A stretch of DNA of 47,657 nt from a virus, in IMG/VR virus record IMGVR_UViG_3300048592_000417, positions 1 through 47,657 of that record; one strand, 5' to 3'. Shown here piece after piece: positions 2,278 through 47,657 of the stretch. How positions within the stretch are numbered: the stretch's first letter is position 1; each line of letters opens with the position of its first letter. Under the pieces are notes generated by a model, which saw nothing but the letters and a program-made list of their open reading frames with translations, did no database searches and was not told the origin of the DNA. Both the position numbers and the translations under genes were made by a program.

Positions 2278-4845
2278 ATGGATGAGAAAACAATTCAATC
2301 ACATTTCCATGACCGAAAGTGGCGCATAAACAATTTGTATTATGTGAAAAATGAGGAGGGGAAGAAGGTTCTTTTTAGAATGAATAAAGTTCAGGAATAT
2401 TTACATGATAACTTATGGTTTTTTAATATTGTTCCAAAAGCCAGACAACTTGGTATCACGACTTTCTTTACAATACTTTATCTCGACCAGGTTCTTTTTA
2501 AGGAAAATCAGACTGCAACGATTATTGCTCACACGGAGAAAGATATGAAAAAAATCTTTCGTAATAAAATTAAATTTGCGTGGGATAATTTGCATCCGTG
2601 GCTCAAGCAGACGATTGGCGACCCGAACACAAACACAGCAAACGAACTTTCATTCCCAAATGGTTCGGTGATTTCTGTGGCGCTTTCTTCAAGGTCGGAT
2701 ACGGTGCAATTTTTACATTGCCTTCATCCTGAACAGGAAGTTGTTATGTATAACGGTTTTGTAAAAAGAATTTATGACGTGGTAGCGGGTGACTATATCC
2801 TCAACGGTAAAGGAAGTAAGTCGTTGGTAAAACATGTGTTAAAACAAAAAACAGACGAGCGTATGCTCGCTATTAAGTCATTCGGGCATTATCAACCTCT
2901 TAAGGTTACAGAAGAACACCAAGTTTTATGTAGAGAATACAAAACAGGAAAACCTGTTTGGAAAAGTGCCAAGCAGATTACATGCGGTGATTATGTTGCG
3001 TTCCCGATAACCAATCCTTCGTACAAAGGTAATTATGATTTTGCTCTTGGTAGAATGTGTGGGTTGTACCTTGCGGAAGGTTCTCTTAGGAAAACAGAGA
3101 TGACGCTATCGTTACATCGTGATGAGGTTAATACGGTTTTGGAGTGGATTGATATGTACAAAGAAGAATACAAGTCACGTCGTGTGTATTTTTCAAAAAA
3201 AAGTAAAACCGCTACAATCAGCATAAATCAGTGGAATCGTTTTGATTGGATAGTGAGTATTTTTGGTAAGGGAGAAGATAAGTATATAAACTCTCGCGTG
3301 TTTTCATATTCATCCGATTTTCTTAAGGGACTGTTGTATGGATATTTATACGGGGATGGGTGTTTTACCAATAATATGGAAATCTCTTGTGTAAGCACGA
3401 GAAGGCAAATAGTTGAGCAAATAAAAAGGCTAATAATTTCATTACGATATGGTGTACCGTCTATCCACTATACAGAGGGTGAGGTGCGATATGGTCGTAA
3501 TTGCAAGGATTCTTGGACGTTGAAATTAACAGGGGCAGGAAATTGGAAATTTAGAAAAGAATTTGCTTTATTACTTCCTGTGTATGTTTCGAAAAGTGCG
3601 GAATATCGTATCGCACATGATAGATGCCCTACAGAACGAAAGTTTTGGAGACGTGGCAAGAAAGTATATTGGTTGCAAGTTACTTCGATTAGTGAGATAG
3701 ATAAACCCGAATATGTGTATGATATTGTGTTGGATGATGAACCTCATTCATTCACCACACCATCAGGTATAGTCCACAATTGTTCCGAGTTCGGAAAGAT
3801 TTGTGCGAAGTACCCAGATAAAGCGGAGGAGATTGTGACTGGTGCCATTAACTCTGTACATGCAGGGTGTATGGTTTCGATTGAATCAACGGCAGAGGGT
3901 CGTGAAGGATATTTTTTTGAGTTTTGTGAGAAAGCTGAAAAAGCCAGAAAGGAGGGACGTGAACTTACTCCGCTTGATTTTAAGATATTCTTTTTCCCGT
4001 GGTGGATTGATGAGAGATATGTTCTTAATGGAAATTTTGCGATTGCGAGGGAGTATGTAGATTATTTCAATACACTTGAGAGTAAGCATAAAATAAAATT
4101 AACTGATGAACAAAGGAGGTGGTGGGTGAAGAAGAAAGAGTTGAATGGTGATAAAATGTTTGCAGAATATCCGTCAACTTTTGATGAGGCGTTTTCGGTC
4201 TCAACAGAGGGCGCTTATTATTCAAAGGAGATGAATCGGGTGTATCTTCAAAACCGTATTGGTCATTTTCCTCTCCGTGATGATACAGAGGTTGATACAT
4301 GGTGGGACCTTGGTATGAACGACTTTAACGTGATTTTATTTACACAGACGGTTGGACCAGCAATTTACTTTATTGATGTCTATTACAACCACGGGTATAA
4401 ACTCGGTCACTATGTTGAGGTGTTGAAAGAAAAAGGATACCGATATGGAAGACATGTTCTTCCCCATGACGTTGAGGTGAGGGATATGAGTAGTGGAAAG
4501 ACACGAAAGCAGACACTATATGACCTTGGTTTGTTTAATGTTTGTGTTTCTCCAAAATCACAACATAGGAATGATGACATTGAGCGTGTTAGAGGTTTGT
4601 TTTCTAGGTTTTATTTTGATGAAATCCATACTAAGAAACTTTACGATTCTCTGGCAAACTACAGGAAGGAATGGGACGCACGTTTAGGTGTGTTTAAGGA
4701 TTCACCTAGACATGATGAGAATAGCCATTTCGCAGATGCTGTAAGAACAGGGTGTATGGTCTGGACGGAAGAAATGCAATTTCCCAATGAATATGAAAAG
4801 GAACAGTATGAAAAAAAGGCAGACCAATCCTTTTTTGCAGACTAA
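2278..4845 (+). CDS. Large terminase (packaging ATPase-nuclease) with intein
   Basis: This 855-residue precursor gives about 501 residues after removal of a 354-residue intein. The N-terminal ATPase shows a variant Walker A (KARQLGITT, residues 54-62). The Walker B region reads VQFLH | CSEFGK, with the catalytic Glu504 just after the splice junction. The C-terminal RNase H-like nuclease has Asp677 in WWDLGMND, Asp700 in FIDVYYN and Asp820 in HFADAVR. The enzyme drives DNA into the prohead using ATP and cuts the concatemer. The intein (148-501) interrupts the ATPase active site, so no packaging motor can form before splicing. It follows the small terminase with a 2-base gap and no Shine-Dalgarno site. 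The mature length is normal for TerL. Confidence 0.95.
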   Translation: MDEKTIQSHFHDRKWRINNLYYVKNEEGKKVLFRMNKVQEYLHDNLWFFNIVPKARQLGITTFFTILYLDQVLFKENQTATIIAHTEKDMKKIFRNKIKFAWDNLHPWLKQTIGDPNTNTANELSFPNGSVISVALSSRSDTVQFLHCLHPEQEVVMYNGFVKRIYDVVAGDYILNGKGSKSLVKHVLKQKTDERMLAIKSFGHYQPLKVTEEHQVLCREYKTGKPVWKSAKQITCGDYVAFPITNPSYKGNYDFALGRMCGLYLAEGSLRKTEMTLSLHRDEVNTVLEWIDMYKEEYKSRRVYFSKKSKTATISINQWNRFDWIVSIFGKGEDKYINSRVFSYSSDFLKGLLYGYLYGDGCFTNNMEISCVSTRRQIVEQIKRLIISLRYGVPSIHYTEGEVRYGRNCKDSWTLKLTGAGNWKFRKEFALLLPVYVSKSAEYRIAHDRCPTERKFWRRGKKVYWLQVTSISEIDKPEYVYDIVLDDEPHSFTTPSGIVHNCSEFGKICAKYPDKAEEIVTGAINSVHAGCMVSIESTAEGREGYFFEFCEKAEKARKEGRELTPLDFKIFFFPWWIDERYVLNGNFAIAREYVDYFNTLESKHKIKLTDEQRRWWVKKKELNGDKMFAEYPSTFDEAFSVSTEGAYYSKEMNRVYLQNRIGHFPLRDDTEVDTWWDLGMNDFNVILFTQTVGPAIYFIDVYYNHGYKLGHYVEVLKEKGYRYGRHVLPHDVEVRDMSSGKTRKQTLYDLGLFNVCVSPKSQHRNDDIERVRGLFSRFYFDEIHTKKLYDSLANYRKEWDARLGVFKDSPRHDENSHFADAVRTGCMVWTEEMQFPNEYEKEQYEKKADQSFFAD
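2719..3780 (+). mobile_element. Intein with LAGLIDADG homing endonuclease
   Basis: This is an in-frame insertion of exactly 1062 bases (354 residues). It begins with Cys148 (CLHPEQEVV), has the block B TEEH motif (Thr211, His214) and ends in VHN followed by Cys502, the +1 nucleophile. All residues needed for splicing are therefore present. Two dodecapeptide motifs, LGRMCGLYLAEG (257-268) and LKGLLYGYLYGDG (349-361), mark a two-motif LAGLIDADG endonuclease. It is probably active for both splicing and homing. Insertion next to the catalytic glutamate of the Walker B region is a typical choice of a highly conserved target. Confidence 0.93.
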
Positions 4846-30098: not shown

Positions 30099-30102
30099 AT
30101 TG

Positions 30103-30175
30103 TGACCATAGTAGGAATCGAACCTACAACCTCATTCTCCGCAGGGATGCACTCTGTCCGTTGAGCTATATGGTC
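30103..30175 (-). tRNA. tRNA-Arg (anticodon GCG)
   Basis: On the - strand GACCATA pairs with TATGGTC as a 7-pair acceptor stem, with discriminator A. GCTC/GAGT forms the D stem, and CTGCGGA is the anticodon loop (U33, anticodon GCG, G37). GTAGG-TTCGATT-CCTAC is the T arm. The anticodon stem has one C-A mismatch. The CCA end is not encoded. It should read CGC and CGU; CGT is very frequent in these genes. The gene overlaps the end of the small membrane-protein frame. Confidence 0.88.
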
Positions 30176-32731: not shown

Positions 32732-33778
32732 ATGGAACCAATAACAAAAGAAATATTTGAATGGCTATACAAGCGAGGAATCACAGATGATGTGATTGTT
32801 CATTCTAAATTATCATGCAATGGAGATGAACTTGTAATCCCAATTTTTGATGAACATGGAGATTTTCTCTTTAATAAATATAGAAGAAATCCTGCCTCTG
32901 TAGAAGGACCAAAATATAGATACGAAAAAGGTTCCACAACAGCTCTTTTTAATTTGCATACACTGCAATATGTACAAAATAATGAGCCTGTTTTTATTTG
33001 TGAAGGAGAGTTGGATTGCCTTTTATTAAACTCTAAAGGACAACACGCTGTTACTTCAACTGGAGGATGTGGAACATTCAAAAAAGAATGGGCTTCCCAC
33101 TTTGAAAATAAAAATGTCTTTATTGTTTTTGATAATGATGATGCTGGATATAAAGGTGCAATGAAAGCCCAAGGTATAATACCTCATGCGCAAATTGTAT
33201 TCTTGCCCGAAGACACAAACGGTAATGATATTACTGATTACTTCCAAGACCACACATTGCAGGATTTTTTCAGTCTTAAAGCTCGTTCTTATCCAATACC
33301 CCGTGAACCAAGCGGTATGCCGACAGAAAAGAAAATCATGCGCTCAATCGTAAAAAGTTTTGGAGATGCAGCCGACCAGTTGCTTGAAATAAAAAGAGAG
33401 TTTACGCAGGAAAGGAAGAATGTAAAACCAATTTTAATCATGCTTCAGTATGTCACATCACGATACGAGACATATAGTCACGCCCTTAAATCTTTTGATA
33501 GAAAATTTCCCAAAGGCGATGGGGACAATGCTTCTGTCCGTAGGGCGAAAGAGGTACCTATAACACAATTTATCAAATTTAATTACAATGGATTTGCAAA
33601 GTGCATAAGCCACAATGAACATACTCCATCAATGCGATACAATAAACCAGACTCAAAATATCCTAACACTATAAAGTGTTTTTCTTGTGGGATGATGATG
33701 GATTCTATTGATGTGTATATGCACCTCAATAATGTCGAATTTAATGAAGCTGTAAAAAGGCTTAATGAAATGATATGA
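32732..33778 (+). CDS. DNA primase, zinc domain at the C-terminus
   Basis: I prefer the ATG at 32732 (348 residues) over 32642, because the extra N-terminus is unlike primases and overlaps the acidic peptide. Residues 1-85 match the N-terminal half of the DnaG polymerase core (WLYKRGITDD, IPIFDEHGDFLFNKYRR). TOPRIM follows with Glu91 (ICEGELD) and FDNDDAG (134-140). The CHC2-type zinc finger is at the end: Cys291, His294 in CISHNEHTPSM and Cys316, Cys319 in CFSCG. In DnaG this finger is N-terminal, so the domain order is permuted. The enzyme should make RNA primers. A hairpin (GGGACAA/TTGTCCC) lies just before the start. Confidence 0.8.
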   Translation: MEPITKEIFEWLYKRGITDDVIVHSKLSCNGDELVIPIFDEHGDFLFNKYRRNPASVEGPKYRYEKGSTTALFNLHTLQYVQNNEPVFICEGELDCLLLNSKGQHAVTSTGGCGTFKKEWASHFENKNVFIVFDNDDAGYKGAMKAQGIIPHAQIVFLPEDTNGNDITDYFQDHTLQDFFSLKARSYPIPREPSGMPTEKKIMRSIVKSFGDAADQLLEIKREFTQERKNVKPILIMLQYVTSRYETYSHALKSFDRKFPKGDGDNASVRRAKEVPITQFIKFNYNGFAKCISHNEHTPSMRYNKPDSKYPNTIKCFSCGMMMDSIDVYMHLNNVEFNEAVKRLNEMI

Positions 33779-34170
33779 AGGGTATAAATCTTGCACAAAA
33801 TAATGGTATGTGGAAAGGCTCAAGAGCTGGTCTTGATGCTTTGCATTTCTGGGTTATTAAACGCCTTAAAAAACCAAAAAATTGTCCTTCTTGTAATAAG
33901 AAAAAGAAACTTGACCTTGCAAACATAAGCCAAAAATATCGCCGTTCATTGAATGATTGGGAATGGCTTTGTCGTTATTGTCACATGAAAAAAGACGGGC
34001 GACTTATTAAGTTGATACAAAGAAATAAATCACGCACTCTAAAGAAAAAAAGATGTGCTTCCTGTGGTCAATGGTTCAAGCCTTGGAGAAGTAAGGGTCG
34101 GTGCTGCTCACGTTCCTGTAGTGCATATCTTGCCAATAAAAAACGCTGGAATTATGACAGAAGAAAATAA
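33775..34170 (+). CDS. HNH-like zinc protein with C-terminal zinc ribbon
   Basis: This 131-residue protein overlaps the primase by 4 bases (ATGA). The N-terminal part has CPSCNKKKKLDLANI, then WEWLCRYCHMKKDGR, an HNH-type treble clef whose first histidine is replaced or displaced. The C-terminal part has CASCGQWFKPWR followed by CCSRSC, a module that recurs in the proteins at 37061 and 44006. It may be a structure-specific nuclease or a DNA-binding accessory of replication. Confidence 0.6.
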   Translation: MKGINLAQNNGMWKGSRAGLDALHFWVIKRLKKPKNCPSCNKKKKLDLANISQKYRRSLNDWEWLCRYCHMKKDGRLIKLIQRNKSRTLKKKRCASCGQWFKPWRSKGRCCSRSCSAYLANKKRWNYDRRK

Positions 34171-35497
34171 AAAAATTGAAATAAGACGCTTTTCTGAACT
34201 AAAAGCGGAATTCGATAAAATGCTCCTCCTTGCGGACGAGGGTATTCTTTCTTTACTGATAGATACGGTTATTGCCAATCAAATGGATTTGGACCCTGTA
34301 TGGCTTTTTATAATTGCACCTTCATCTGGCGGAAAATCAGAACTGATTACTGCTCTTAACGATATTGAGATTAGTGGTCAGAAACTGATTTATCCTATTT
34401 CTGATTTGACTACAAATACCTTCGCCTCTGGTCAACACAAAAAAGGAAAAGAAACTTCCCTTCTACACAAAATGCCTCCTGGCTCCATTATGACTTTTAA
34501 GGATTTTACCTCCATGCTTTCAAAGAATAGGGAAGCCCGTGCTGAAATTTTAGGTCAACTTCGTGAAATTTATGATAAAGAATATACAAAAAGAACAGGA
34601 ACGGGAAATGATATAACGTGGCGAGGTAAGGTTGGAGCAATTGCTGGAGCTACCGAAATTGTCTATGACTATCAAGAAGATTTTTCCGCCATGGGAGACC
34701 GTTTTATTATGTATTCAATGAAGCAACCGCCACGCCGTGACCTTCTCAATTTTGTAATGAGAAACAAAGAAGATAAAACATTTAAAAAAGAAGCAATGAG
34801 AGCGCACCTTCGTCTTGCCACCAAATCATACCTTGAATATATACTTGCAAATCTAAAAGAGGATGAAACAACCTTAAGCCCAGAAACCAAACAAGACATC
34901 ATTGAAGTGGCTGATTTTTGCACCCTTGTACGTTCGGGAGTTATTGTTGATAAAAGAAAAGGGTTGGTTGAGTTTGTCCCATCGGCTGAAATGCCAACAA
35001 GAATGATTGAACAGCTCCTTGCTATTGCTTCAGCAACTTTAGCACGCAAATGTTCGGAGCCTTTATCTGGCGGCGCTGATGCTCCTCATAATAAAGGACA
35101 ACTTACGCAACAAGAACGAGAAGTTCTCTATAAAATAGCTTTTGACAGTATTCCATTAAAACGAAGAATGGCTCTAAAGAAGCTCGCTCAATATGTCGGC
35201 GGTATTACAACCAAAGGGCTTGCGATGTCTATTAACTATCAAACCCCCGTTGTTCAGGGGTGGCTTTCACAGCTTAACGGTCTTGGTATTTGCTCCCGTG
35301 AAAACAAAGGAGGGAACCAAGGCGACCTCTGGAAATTAAATCCAAAATACAGAGACATCATGGTTAAATTTGAAAAAATCTCTGTAGAAGAAGGTTCCCT
35401 TGAAGGTGACGGGTCAGATGATGATTTCGATGAAGTAGAAGAAGCGTGGGATGCTAAAGCCCGTTCTGATATGGAGCAAGAATTTAATGATTTTTAA
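34154..35497 (+). CDS. P-loop ATPase, replicative helicase-like
   Basis: I choose the ATG at 34154 (447 residues), since the upstream extension lies wholly within the HNH gene in another frame. Walker A is APSSGGKS (55-62). MPPGSIMTFKDFTSML supplies a probable Walker B/sensor region, and TWRGKVGAIAGATEIVYDYQ resembles sensor segments of AAA+ helicases. A winged-helix-like part (about 330-400, PLKRRMALKKLAQYVGG) and an acidic tail ending EFNDF follow. The tail mimics that of the SSB-like protein. Probable role: helicase or helicase loader acting with the primase. Confidence 0.65.
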   Translation: MTEENKKIEIRRFSELKAEFDKMLLLADEGILSLLIDTVIANQMDLDPVWLFIIAPSSGGKSELITALNDIEISGQKLIYPISDLTTNTFASGQHKKGKETSLLHKMPPGSIMTFKDFTSMLSKNREARAEILGQLREIYDKEYTKRTGTGNDITWRGKVGAIAGATEIVYDYQEDFSAMGDRFIMYSMKQPPRRDLLNFVMRNKEDKTFKKEAMRAHLRLATKSYLEYILANLKEDETTLSPETKQDIIEVADFCTLVRSGVIVDKRKGLVEFVPSAEMPTRMIEQLLAIASATLARKCSEPLSGGADAPHNKGQLTQQEREVLYKIAFDSIPLKRRMALKKLAQYVGGITTKGLAMSINYQTPVVQGWLSQLNGLGICSRENKGGNQGDLWKLNPKYRDIMVKFEKISVEEGSLEGDGSDDDFDEVEEAWDAKARSDMEQEFNDF

Positions 35498-39556: not shown

Positions 39557-40081
39557 TTATTTCCCCTTAGGAGTTGTGCTACTAATTGTAAGGTCTAATC
39601 CTCGTACACTGTCCAGAATATCTCCCTCTGGCGTGGCAACATTACTGTCTGCCGTGTTTCCCTTAACGTGTCTGATGGAGAGGGTAGTATTTCCCTCTTC
39701 CAGGGCTTTGAAACGTACCGCCCCTACGGTTCCCAATCCACTAAAGGGTTCTCCACCCCCTTTAATGCCGGCAGAGAACGCCACAAAGTCTGGGCCAGGA
39801 AAACTCCCTGGGTAATCATCAAACACCGAATCTCCTACAGGAACATCCACGACCTCTAACAAGGTTGGATCATAATCTATAAAAACATCAACGCCGTAGA
39901 CTTCTTGCTTTGTTACAAGTAATACCTGAACATCAAAGACATCTTCTGGCTTAACGAGCGATGGCCCTTGTAACCAAAGAGAGGTTTCCTTCGCAGAAAT
40001 AAACTCATTGGCTATGTAATAGAACCCTGAAGAGATTATTGCTAAACCTAACGTAATACCGAGAAGTGATTTTGTTTTCAT
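39557..40081 (-). CDS. Exported cohesin-domain-like protein
   Basis: I start at 40081 (174 residues, MKTKSLLGITLGLAIISSGF), which gives a signal peptide or N-terminal anchor. Residues about 40-170 look like a cohesin-type beta sandwich: PEDVFDVQVLLVTKQEVYGV, DVFIDYDPTLLEVVDVPVGD, and FSGLGTVGAVRFKALEEGNT. Cohesins bind dockerins in cellulosomes but also occur widely in surface proteins of CPR bacteria and archaea. A phage-encoded exported cohesin suggests modification of the host surface. It lies between the DUF6745-like and RHGDVML-type genes. Confidence 0.6.
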   Translation of the reverse strand: MKTKSLLGITLGLAIISSGFYYIANEFISAKETSLWLQGPSLVKPEDVFDVQVLLVTKQEVYGVDVFIDYDPTLLEVVDVPVGDSVFDDYPGSFPGPDFVAFSAGIKGGGEPFSGLGTVGAVRFKALEEGNTTLSIRHVKGNTADSNVATPEGDILDSVRGLDLTISSTTPKGK

Positions 40082-40086
40082 GTTTA

Positions 40087-41133
40087 TTACCACTCATTAG
40101 TAAATACTACTTCCTCTAATCCAAAAGACTTTGCTTTTGCCTTTAGACAAGTATCTTCATTTGTACCTAAAAAGTACTCTCTCCCTGTAGTCGGACAGTG
40201 GCAGTTATAGTATTTCAGTGGTTCTTTTACTTCTGGCACAGTGAAAGACACAATTCTCATGGGATAGCCTCGGCCGTCGTCTGTTACTTCATCTAACACA
40301 GTAAAGTCTTGTAACTCTTTCATCTTGGCCTTATCCATAAATTGATAGGCGATACGGCGATGTTCAAGATTGTCTATAGCAAAGACTTCCTCCGCTGAAA
40401 GTGTATCGTTTACTATTTTCTCCCACCACTCTTTTTCAAACCGTACCCCGTGAAGTTTATATATTTCTGTACCATCACTAAAGGCCAAAGCTGGGCCTTC
40501 AGTTGAGTGTAGTCTTTTATTTTCATCTTGCTTGACAATGGTGGGCCTCAACATTACAAAGCAGGTTTTTTCAAATAGAAAAATATAAAAAATACCAGAG
40601 CGAAGAAACCCAACATATCTCTCCGTCGGTTCTGTTTCTTTTATAGCCCCTATTTCTTTCCAGTATTCATACCACGCACCAAACTCTGCGTCATAACAAA
40701 GCGACACATACCCCACACTGTCCCCCACACTGTCCCCCACACTGTCCCCCACACTGGCCCACACACTGGCCCGCACACTGTCCCACACACTGGCCCCCAC
40801 ACTGTCCCCCACACTGGCCTCCACACTGTCCCCCACACTGGCCCACACACTGGCCCGCACACTGTCCCACACACTGGCCCCCACACTGGCCCTCACAATG
40901 GCCCTCACACTGTCCCTCACACTGTTATTAAACTTTTCTGAAAAGTCTTTAGGCCCACTAACAAGGACTACCTCTGGTTCTTTTAGATTGCTTGCGTAAT
41001 AAAGCCACTTAACTGCACTTGTTATTTCTTCCTCGTCGTACTTTTGTTCGTATAGAGCAAGGTTTATCCACTCATCTCTCTTTTTTTCTTGAAGTGCTAC
41101 TTGTTCTTCTGTTAGTTTTTCTATTTTTTTCAT
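40087..41133 (-). CDS. DUF6745-like protein with xxSV repeats
   Basis: This 348-residue protein has a helical N-terminus (1-60). About 19 tandem four-residue units of the form xxSV follow (residues about 69-142; VRASVWASVGDSV). A tryptophan/tyrosine-rich part and LHSTEGPALAFSDGTEIYKL with HGVRF (about 214-239) come next, then a C-terminal YNCHCPTTGREYFLG domain. The pattern of repeats followed by HSxxGPAxxFxDGxxxYxxHGV recalls DUF6745 proteins. The repeats may form a solenoid. The function is unknown. It starts the three-gene leftward group with the cohesin-like protein. Confidence 0.6.
   Translation of the reverse strand: MKKIEKLTEEQVALQEKKRDEWINLALYEQKYDEEEITSAVKWLYYASNLKEPEVVLVSGPKDFSEKFNNSVRDSVRAIVRASVGASVWDSVRASVWASVGDSVEASVGDSVGASVWDSVRASVWASVGDSVGDSVGDSVGYVSLCYDAEFGAWYEYWKEIGAIKETEPTERYVGFLRSGIFYIFLFEKTCFVMLRPTIVKQDENKRLHSTEGPALAFSDGTEIYKLHGVRFEKEWWEKIVNDTLSAEEVFAIDNLEHRRIAYQFMDKAKMKELQDFTVLDEVTDDGRGYPMRIVSFTVPEVKEPLKYYNCHCPTTGREYFLGTNEDTCLKAKAKSFGLEEVVFTNEW
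40711..40930. repeat. 12-base tandem repeat inside the DUF6745-like gene
   Basis: On the + strand the unit is close to CACACTGNCCCN, repeated about 18 times and encoding xxSV on the - strand. A block of several units occurs twice, 84 bases (7 units) apart, showing higher-order duplication. Such arrays change length by slippage or recombination. Confidence 0.85.
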
Positions 41134-47530: not shown

Positions 47531-47657
47531 AAAAAAAAAAAAAAAATATTCACAAAAACAATATAGGGGGGTATAAATGCAACTTTCTTTTTTGTGGCTT
47601 TTTGCGTAAGCCCTGCGAGGCGAGGCGAGGCGAAGGCCCAAAAACGGCTTAATAAAG
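47531..47657. repeat. Terminal direct repeat, right copy
   Basis: Exact copy of 1-127. See the left copy for reasoning: it closes the circle and should be counted once. Confidence 0.95.

Follow-up and report, generated by a model that had tools for sequence, protein, structure and literature searches.

The gene at positions 32732-33778 (+) of virus record IMGVR_UViG_3300048592_000417 (IMG/VR), analysed here over its whole 47,657 nucleotides (referred to as the window), encodes a primase with a permuted domain order. In textbook TOPRIM primases such as DnaG, T7 gp4, and T4 gp61 the zinc finger precedes the catalytic half, and the position of the finger and the length of its linker are thought to affect start-site choice and primer length. 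Judged by its sequence, the window gene is a member of the TOPRIM primase superfamily in which the TOPRIM domain is followed by the CHC2 finger, and it is not a DnaG. This order is a heritable, real redesign and not the outcome of chance or error, because full-length relatives with the same order are encoded by 25 viral loci. Based on the domain order, the conserved acids and zinc ligands, a confident structural model, and a conserved gene pairing, we consider it likely that the protein is a DnaG/T7-class TOPRIM primase with a C-terminally tethered finger, acting in a primase-helicase pair with an adjacent MCM-like ATPase.

Domain order and predicted fold of the primase

The primase gene is single and intact, with a frame that stays open from the ATG at 32732 to the TGA at 33778 and a product of 348 aa. 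Pfam places Toprim_2 at residues 88-167 (E=5.9e-9) and the CHC2 finger PF01807 at residues 286-347 (E=1.5e-8), both above the cut-off, which bears out an earlier note on this DNA that had put TOPRIM first and the finger last; the two halves are also matched separately by PHROGs primase families. From the N-terminus, all on the plus strand, the protein comprises a reduced RNA-polymerase-domain (RPD) N-lobe (approximately residues 1-80; 32732-32971) with the invariant KYRR (49-52) and K61, the TOPRIM catalytic domain (residues 88-167; 32993-33232), and a two-helix hairpin (residues 200-255; 33329-33496) joining TOPRIM to the finger. These are followed by a low-confidence, presumably flexible linker (residues 258-264; 33503-33523) and the CHC2 zinc ribbon (residues 286-347/348; 33587-33775). 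The catalytic acids of the TOPRIM domain are E91, D134, and D136, which are invariant in 22 sequences, and the zinc ligands of the ribbon are C291, H294, C316, and C319. The earlier note had E91 and all four ligands correctly numbered, while the FDNDDAG motif containing D134 and D136 occupies residues 133-139 rather than 134-140, a shift of one residue.

A second CHC2 finger upstream in frame, which the same note had named as contrary evidence, was looked for and is absent, PF01807 having one match in the whole 47.7 kb record. The finger ends the protein, and no Pfam match to a DnaB-binding C-terminal domain was obtained within it. The NCBIfam dnaG score (TIGR01391) of 65.8 bits falls below the cut-off of 283.6, and where a canonical DnaG has a zinc domain before the RPD, the window protein has its finger (286-347) after TOPRIM (88-167). 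The catalytic fold is TOPRIM and not the AEP fold of PrimPol/AEP enzymes.

Structure prediction, one of the checks that had been suggested, gave a confident AlphaFold2 (AF2) model similar to DnaG and T7 gp4 (22-sequence alignment; pLDDT 92.9, pTM 0.74), in which residues 258-264 are the sole low-confidence stretch and in which, at this pTM of 0.74, the position of the finger relative to the active site is not fixed. A Foldseek search of this model against the PDB returned Aquifex DnaG (2au3) as the top match together with DnaG cores, T7 gp4, and Twinkle, and the zinc domain 1d0q further down the list. Three features of the TOPRIM primase superfamily are found in the protein: a TOPRIM domain with the catalytic Glu and DxD, a preceding RPD N-lobe with basic template-binding residues (AF2, Foldseek, KYRR, and K61), and a CHC2-type zinc ribbon (PF01807 and the structural match to 1d0q). 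TOPRIM domains also occur in topoisomerases, OLD nucleases, and RNase M5, and RNase M5 and small TOPRIM proteins do appear lower in the Foldseek list, so that the TOPRIM half might in principle be some other TOPRIM enzyme, such as a nuclease or a regulator, in which a CHC2 finger is present by coincidence. This is very improbable, however: every one of the best matches is a primase, the protein has both the RPD N-lobe with KYRR and a primase-type finger, and its gene lies among replication genes.

A viral family with the same order

Scanning viral contigs by exact peptide pattern with the primase alone yielded no relatives, a result attributed to the limits of such patterns. The family was reached through the neighboring ATPase: a DNA pattern for its motif KDFT-18-EIYD retrieved 33 viral stretches, 27 of which encode true ATPase relatives, and four of these records hold full-length permuted primases of 41-45% identity, two of them carrying the same protein. 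An alignment of these full-length relatives was then used to find the 25 IMG/VR loci, which represent 21 distinct proteins that are 27-45% identical. At each of the 25 loci the profiles place TOPRIM ahead of CHC2, in proteins of 305-360 aa. In the 22 distinct aligned proteins K49, Y50, R51, R52, K61, E91, E93, D95, D134, D136, C291, C316, and C319 do not vary, and 21 of the proteins retain H294. The linker between TOPRIM and the finger falls into a long class of 86-98 residues and a short class of 33-63 residues. The permutation relative to DnaG and T7-type primases that the earlier note had pointed out is hence a conserved family trait. It had also raised the concern of an assembly or frameshift error joining two genes, and the existence of finger-only genes (see below) does make a false fusion conceivable; its probability is now negligible, since the same unbroken order recurs in contigs that are independent and divergent, with open frames in all 25 and sequence that can be aligned through the junction.

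Outside this set, no match covering at least 80% of the window primase was found among 50,697 phage and 72,556 plasmid records, and no clear full-length match was present among the 50 matches listed for BFVD. A scan of bacterial genomes by two short peptide patterns returned matches with the canonical order or with the finger alone, none with the permuted order. Two phages that apparently spanned both halves, Helicobacter phage PtB92G and Enterococcus phage Efs 1-1-1, proved to encode ordinary primases with an N-terminal finger, the latter probably a host DnaG.

The enzyme can be compared with several known systems. With bacterial DnaG it shares the RPD N-lobe, the TOPRIM domain with Glu and DxD, and the CHC2 zinc ribbon, but the finger of DnaG is N-terminal whereas that of the window primase is C-terminal, with no DnaB-binding domain found. 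Enzymes of the T7 gp4, T4 gp61, and Twinkle type likewise have a compact RPD fold, a replicative ATPase partner, and a mobile finger on a linker (PMC10359460), although their finger is N-terminal and their partner helicase is of the RecA fold and moves 5′-to-3′, in contrast to the MCM-like AAA+ ATPase encoded by a separate gene in the window. The catalytic domain also comes first in human PrimPol and UL52-type enzymes, followed by a C-terminal CHC2 finger that is essential for priming in PrimPol (PMC4027207); their AEP catalytic fold is unrelated to TOPRIM, and the likeness is one of architecture only. In jumbo phages a split zinc ribbon and DnaG TOPRIM have uncoupled the ribbon from its N-terminal place (PMC7824862), but as two proteins and not as one polypeptide with the finger last. 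The InversePrim family similarly has its accessory primase domain at the other flank of the catalytic domain, yet belongs to the AEP superfamily and carries PriCT-1, where the window protein has TOPRIM and CHC2 (PMC5862659). Precedents therefore exist for a split zinc ribbon (PMC7824862) and, among AEP primases, for an accessory domain in inverted position (PMC5862659), whereas no description of the TOPRIM-then-CHC2 order was found in the open-access literature, within which it appears to be new.

The MCM-like ATPase and its other partners

An exact 127-base direct terminal repeat (1-127 and 47531-47657) indicates that the record is probably the complete genome, circular or terminally redundant, of a tailed phage that is probably temperate, the latter call being based on an integrase at 817-1641. 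Elsewhere in the genome, the large terminase gene (2278-4845) is divided into two terminase-like parts by an intein (Pfam Intein_splicing, 181-501), a tRNA-Arg (anticodon gcg; 30102-30175, -) lies between the structural and replication genes, and adjacent genes encode a cohesin-domain protein (39557-40093, -) and a DUF6745 protein (40087-41133, -).

The primase gene does overlap the next ORF, an HNH-like/zinc ORF at 33775-34170 (+), by the four bases ATGA (33775-33778), as had been noted. The accompanying suggestion that the finger might be coupled to this ORF is unsupported: its HNH likeness is weak (PF01844 E=0.13; PHROG HNH E=0.008), and its lack of conservation speaks against coupling, the ORF being absent in the relatives and probably an insertion. 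In the relatives the gene adjacent to the primase encodes instead an MCM-like AAA+ ATPase, which in the window comes just after the HNH-like ORF (34154-35497, +; 447 aa). This ATPase is encoded beside or close behind the permuted primase at 24 of the 25 loci, frequently with the same four-base ATGA overlap (for example L074, L075, L078, L080-L085, L087, and L093).

The ATPase model (pLDDT 88.5) matches MCM2-7, archaeal MCM, RavA, and BchI in Foldseek at 10-14% identity, and profile comparison identifies a winged helix in its C-terminal part, with matches to winged-helix regulators at about residues 300-400. The product has the AAA+ core of the MCM/BchI clade and the C-terminal winged helix expected of an MCM-like helicase, and from these sequence and model comparisons it is a probable replicative helicase. 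Helicase activity is not assured, because the Walker-B-like KDFT has an invariant Asp (D117) with no Glu following, so the canonical Asp-Glu pair is missing. Pentatricopeptide-repeat matches of the ATPase profile were set aside, as no matching stretch passes on its own.

Relatives of this ATPase are also fused to or lie beside other primases, namely RepB_primase (L006), DUF3854 (L007), PriCT-1 and AEP-TOTE proteins (L034, L012), and Prim-Pol (L179). The phylum of L103 (Patescibacteria, Candidatus Buchananbacteria) was scanned: the ATPase occurs in 11 of 380 Patescibacteria genomes (E <= 1e-15) and in 12 of 374 genomes of one Patescibacteria class (E <= 1e-40), and in none of 395 Bacteroidota (E <= 1e-15) or 299 Bacillota genomes (E <= 1e-40). 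No permuted primase was seen at the ATPase loci examined in these searches, in which Patescibacteria were the only one of the three phyla to yield the ATPase. There, zinc-TOPRIM-ATPase arrangements with canonical order occur (L155, L158, L159, L160, and L184). Four of them (L155, L158, L160, and L184) are single polypeptides with an N-terminal zinc domain, TOPRIM, and the MCM-like ATPase, a layout like that of T7 gp4 with another helicase fold; they resemble the window system in their related TOPRIM and shared ATPase family, but differ in the N-terminal finger and the inclusion of the ATPase in the same chain. In L177 a small finger gene precedes a TOPRIM-ATPase gene, and in L157, L164, and L178 a finger-only protein precedes the ATPase. 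Small CHC2-like proteins that have lost most cysteines lie directly upstream of two further TOPRIM-ATPase fusions (L156:392-670 and L161:3069-3392), and another small protein recurs upstream of the Patescibacteria ATPase (L165:3718-3948, DUF5659 in Pfam; similar-looking L164:6895-7164, L178:11021-11275, and L179:7969-8238).

Finger-only proteins with a C-terminal finger and no detected TOPRIM are also encoded by five phages of the ATPase set and by MW202577, the latter without the ATPase. Stand-alone CHC2 proteins of this kind were recorded in L060-L064, L164, L178, and L002, with the ATPase adjoining in all but L002, and no TOPRIM was found alongside them in the viral records searched. Those beside the ATPase share the helical-then-CHC2 layout of the C-terminal part of the window primase, whose hairpin resembles their N-terminal part. 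These cases count against the primase-helicase reading, since a finger kept with the ATPase may serve the ATPase too. The CHC2 domain might then act mainly in origin or single-stranded DNA recognition or in helicase loading, with TOPRIM a fused accessory primase and the finger not the template-selecting part; that the helical hairpin goes with the finger and not with TOPRIM would fit. We regard this as unlikely, given that the finger acts in initiation in T7, T4, and PrimPol primases (PMC10359460, PMC4027207) and that the ligands are kept in 21 of 22 fused proteins; moreover, some of the contigs are incomplete, and a TOPRIM gene could lie outside them.

Priming, origin of the order, and implications

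The finger of the T4 and T7 primases recognizes the start site and keeps hold of the primer 5′ end, and the T4 linker may work like a measuring tape (PMC10359460). By analogy, priming by the permuted enzyme most likely proceeds as in these primases, with the tether on the other side and possibly between subunits. Carried on a linker of 33-98 residues, the finger would engage the start site of the template together with the 5′ end of the primer. It would present the template to the TOPRIM site either in cis or across subunits, as the T7 and T4 primases do. That the permutation alters how the finger reaches the template is a plausible prediction. MCM-like and related helicases of SCCmec elements move 3′-to-5′ (PMC7581432). 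A more elaborate proposal, which we hold tentatively and would not call probable, is a hybrid primosome in phages that probably infect Patescibacteria. It would couple a bacterial-type TOPRIM primase, bearing its finger at the C-terminus, to an MCM-like, possibly 3′-to-5′, AAA+ helicase, and its reversed tether would change the geometry in which start sites are selected, primer length is set, and hand-off takes place.

As to origin, the permuted TOPRIM halves form one cluster (support 93/94) when three long branches are left out, and two changes appear in the tree with these included. ATPase trees unite the permuted and finger-only phages in one clade (97/91; 92/94 in a second tree), with the finger-only Patescibacteria elements falling outside it. 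Most simply, a finger protein that was already a neighbor of the ATPase probably gained a TOPRIM half at its front. This ancestral protein would have had a helical N-terminus and a C-terminal CHC2, so that the finger stayed in place, and TOPRIM would later have been lost in some lineages. The change may have run in the opposite direction, by loss rather than fusion, and the ATPase trees do not decide between the two.

A conserved natural family with the finger on the other end offers a ready test of whether domain order and tether point matter, and the range of linkers among its members would allow primer length to be compared from one member to the next. A bacterial-type primase is paired here with an MCM-like ATPase, and zinc-TOPRIM, finger-only, and AEP partners replace one another around a single ATPase family. 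Both observations point to the swapping of replication modules among phages and mobile elements, those of Patescibacteria apparently among them. If this ATPase also moves 3′-to-5′, primase and helicase would work on different strands, unlike DnaG and DnaB.
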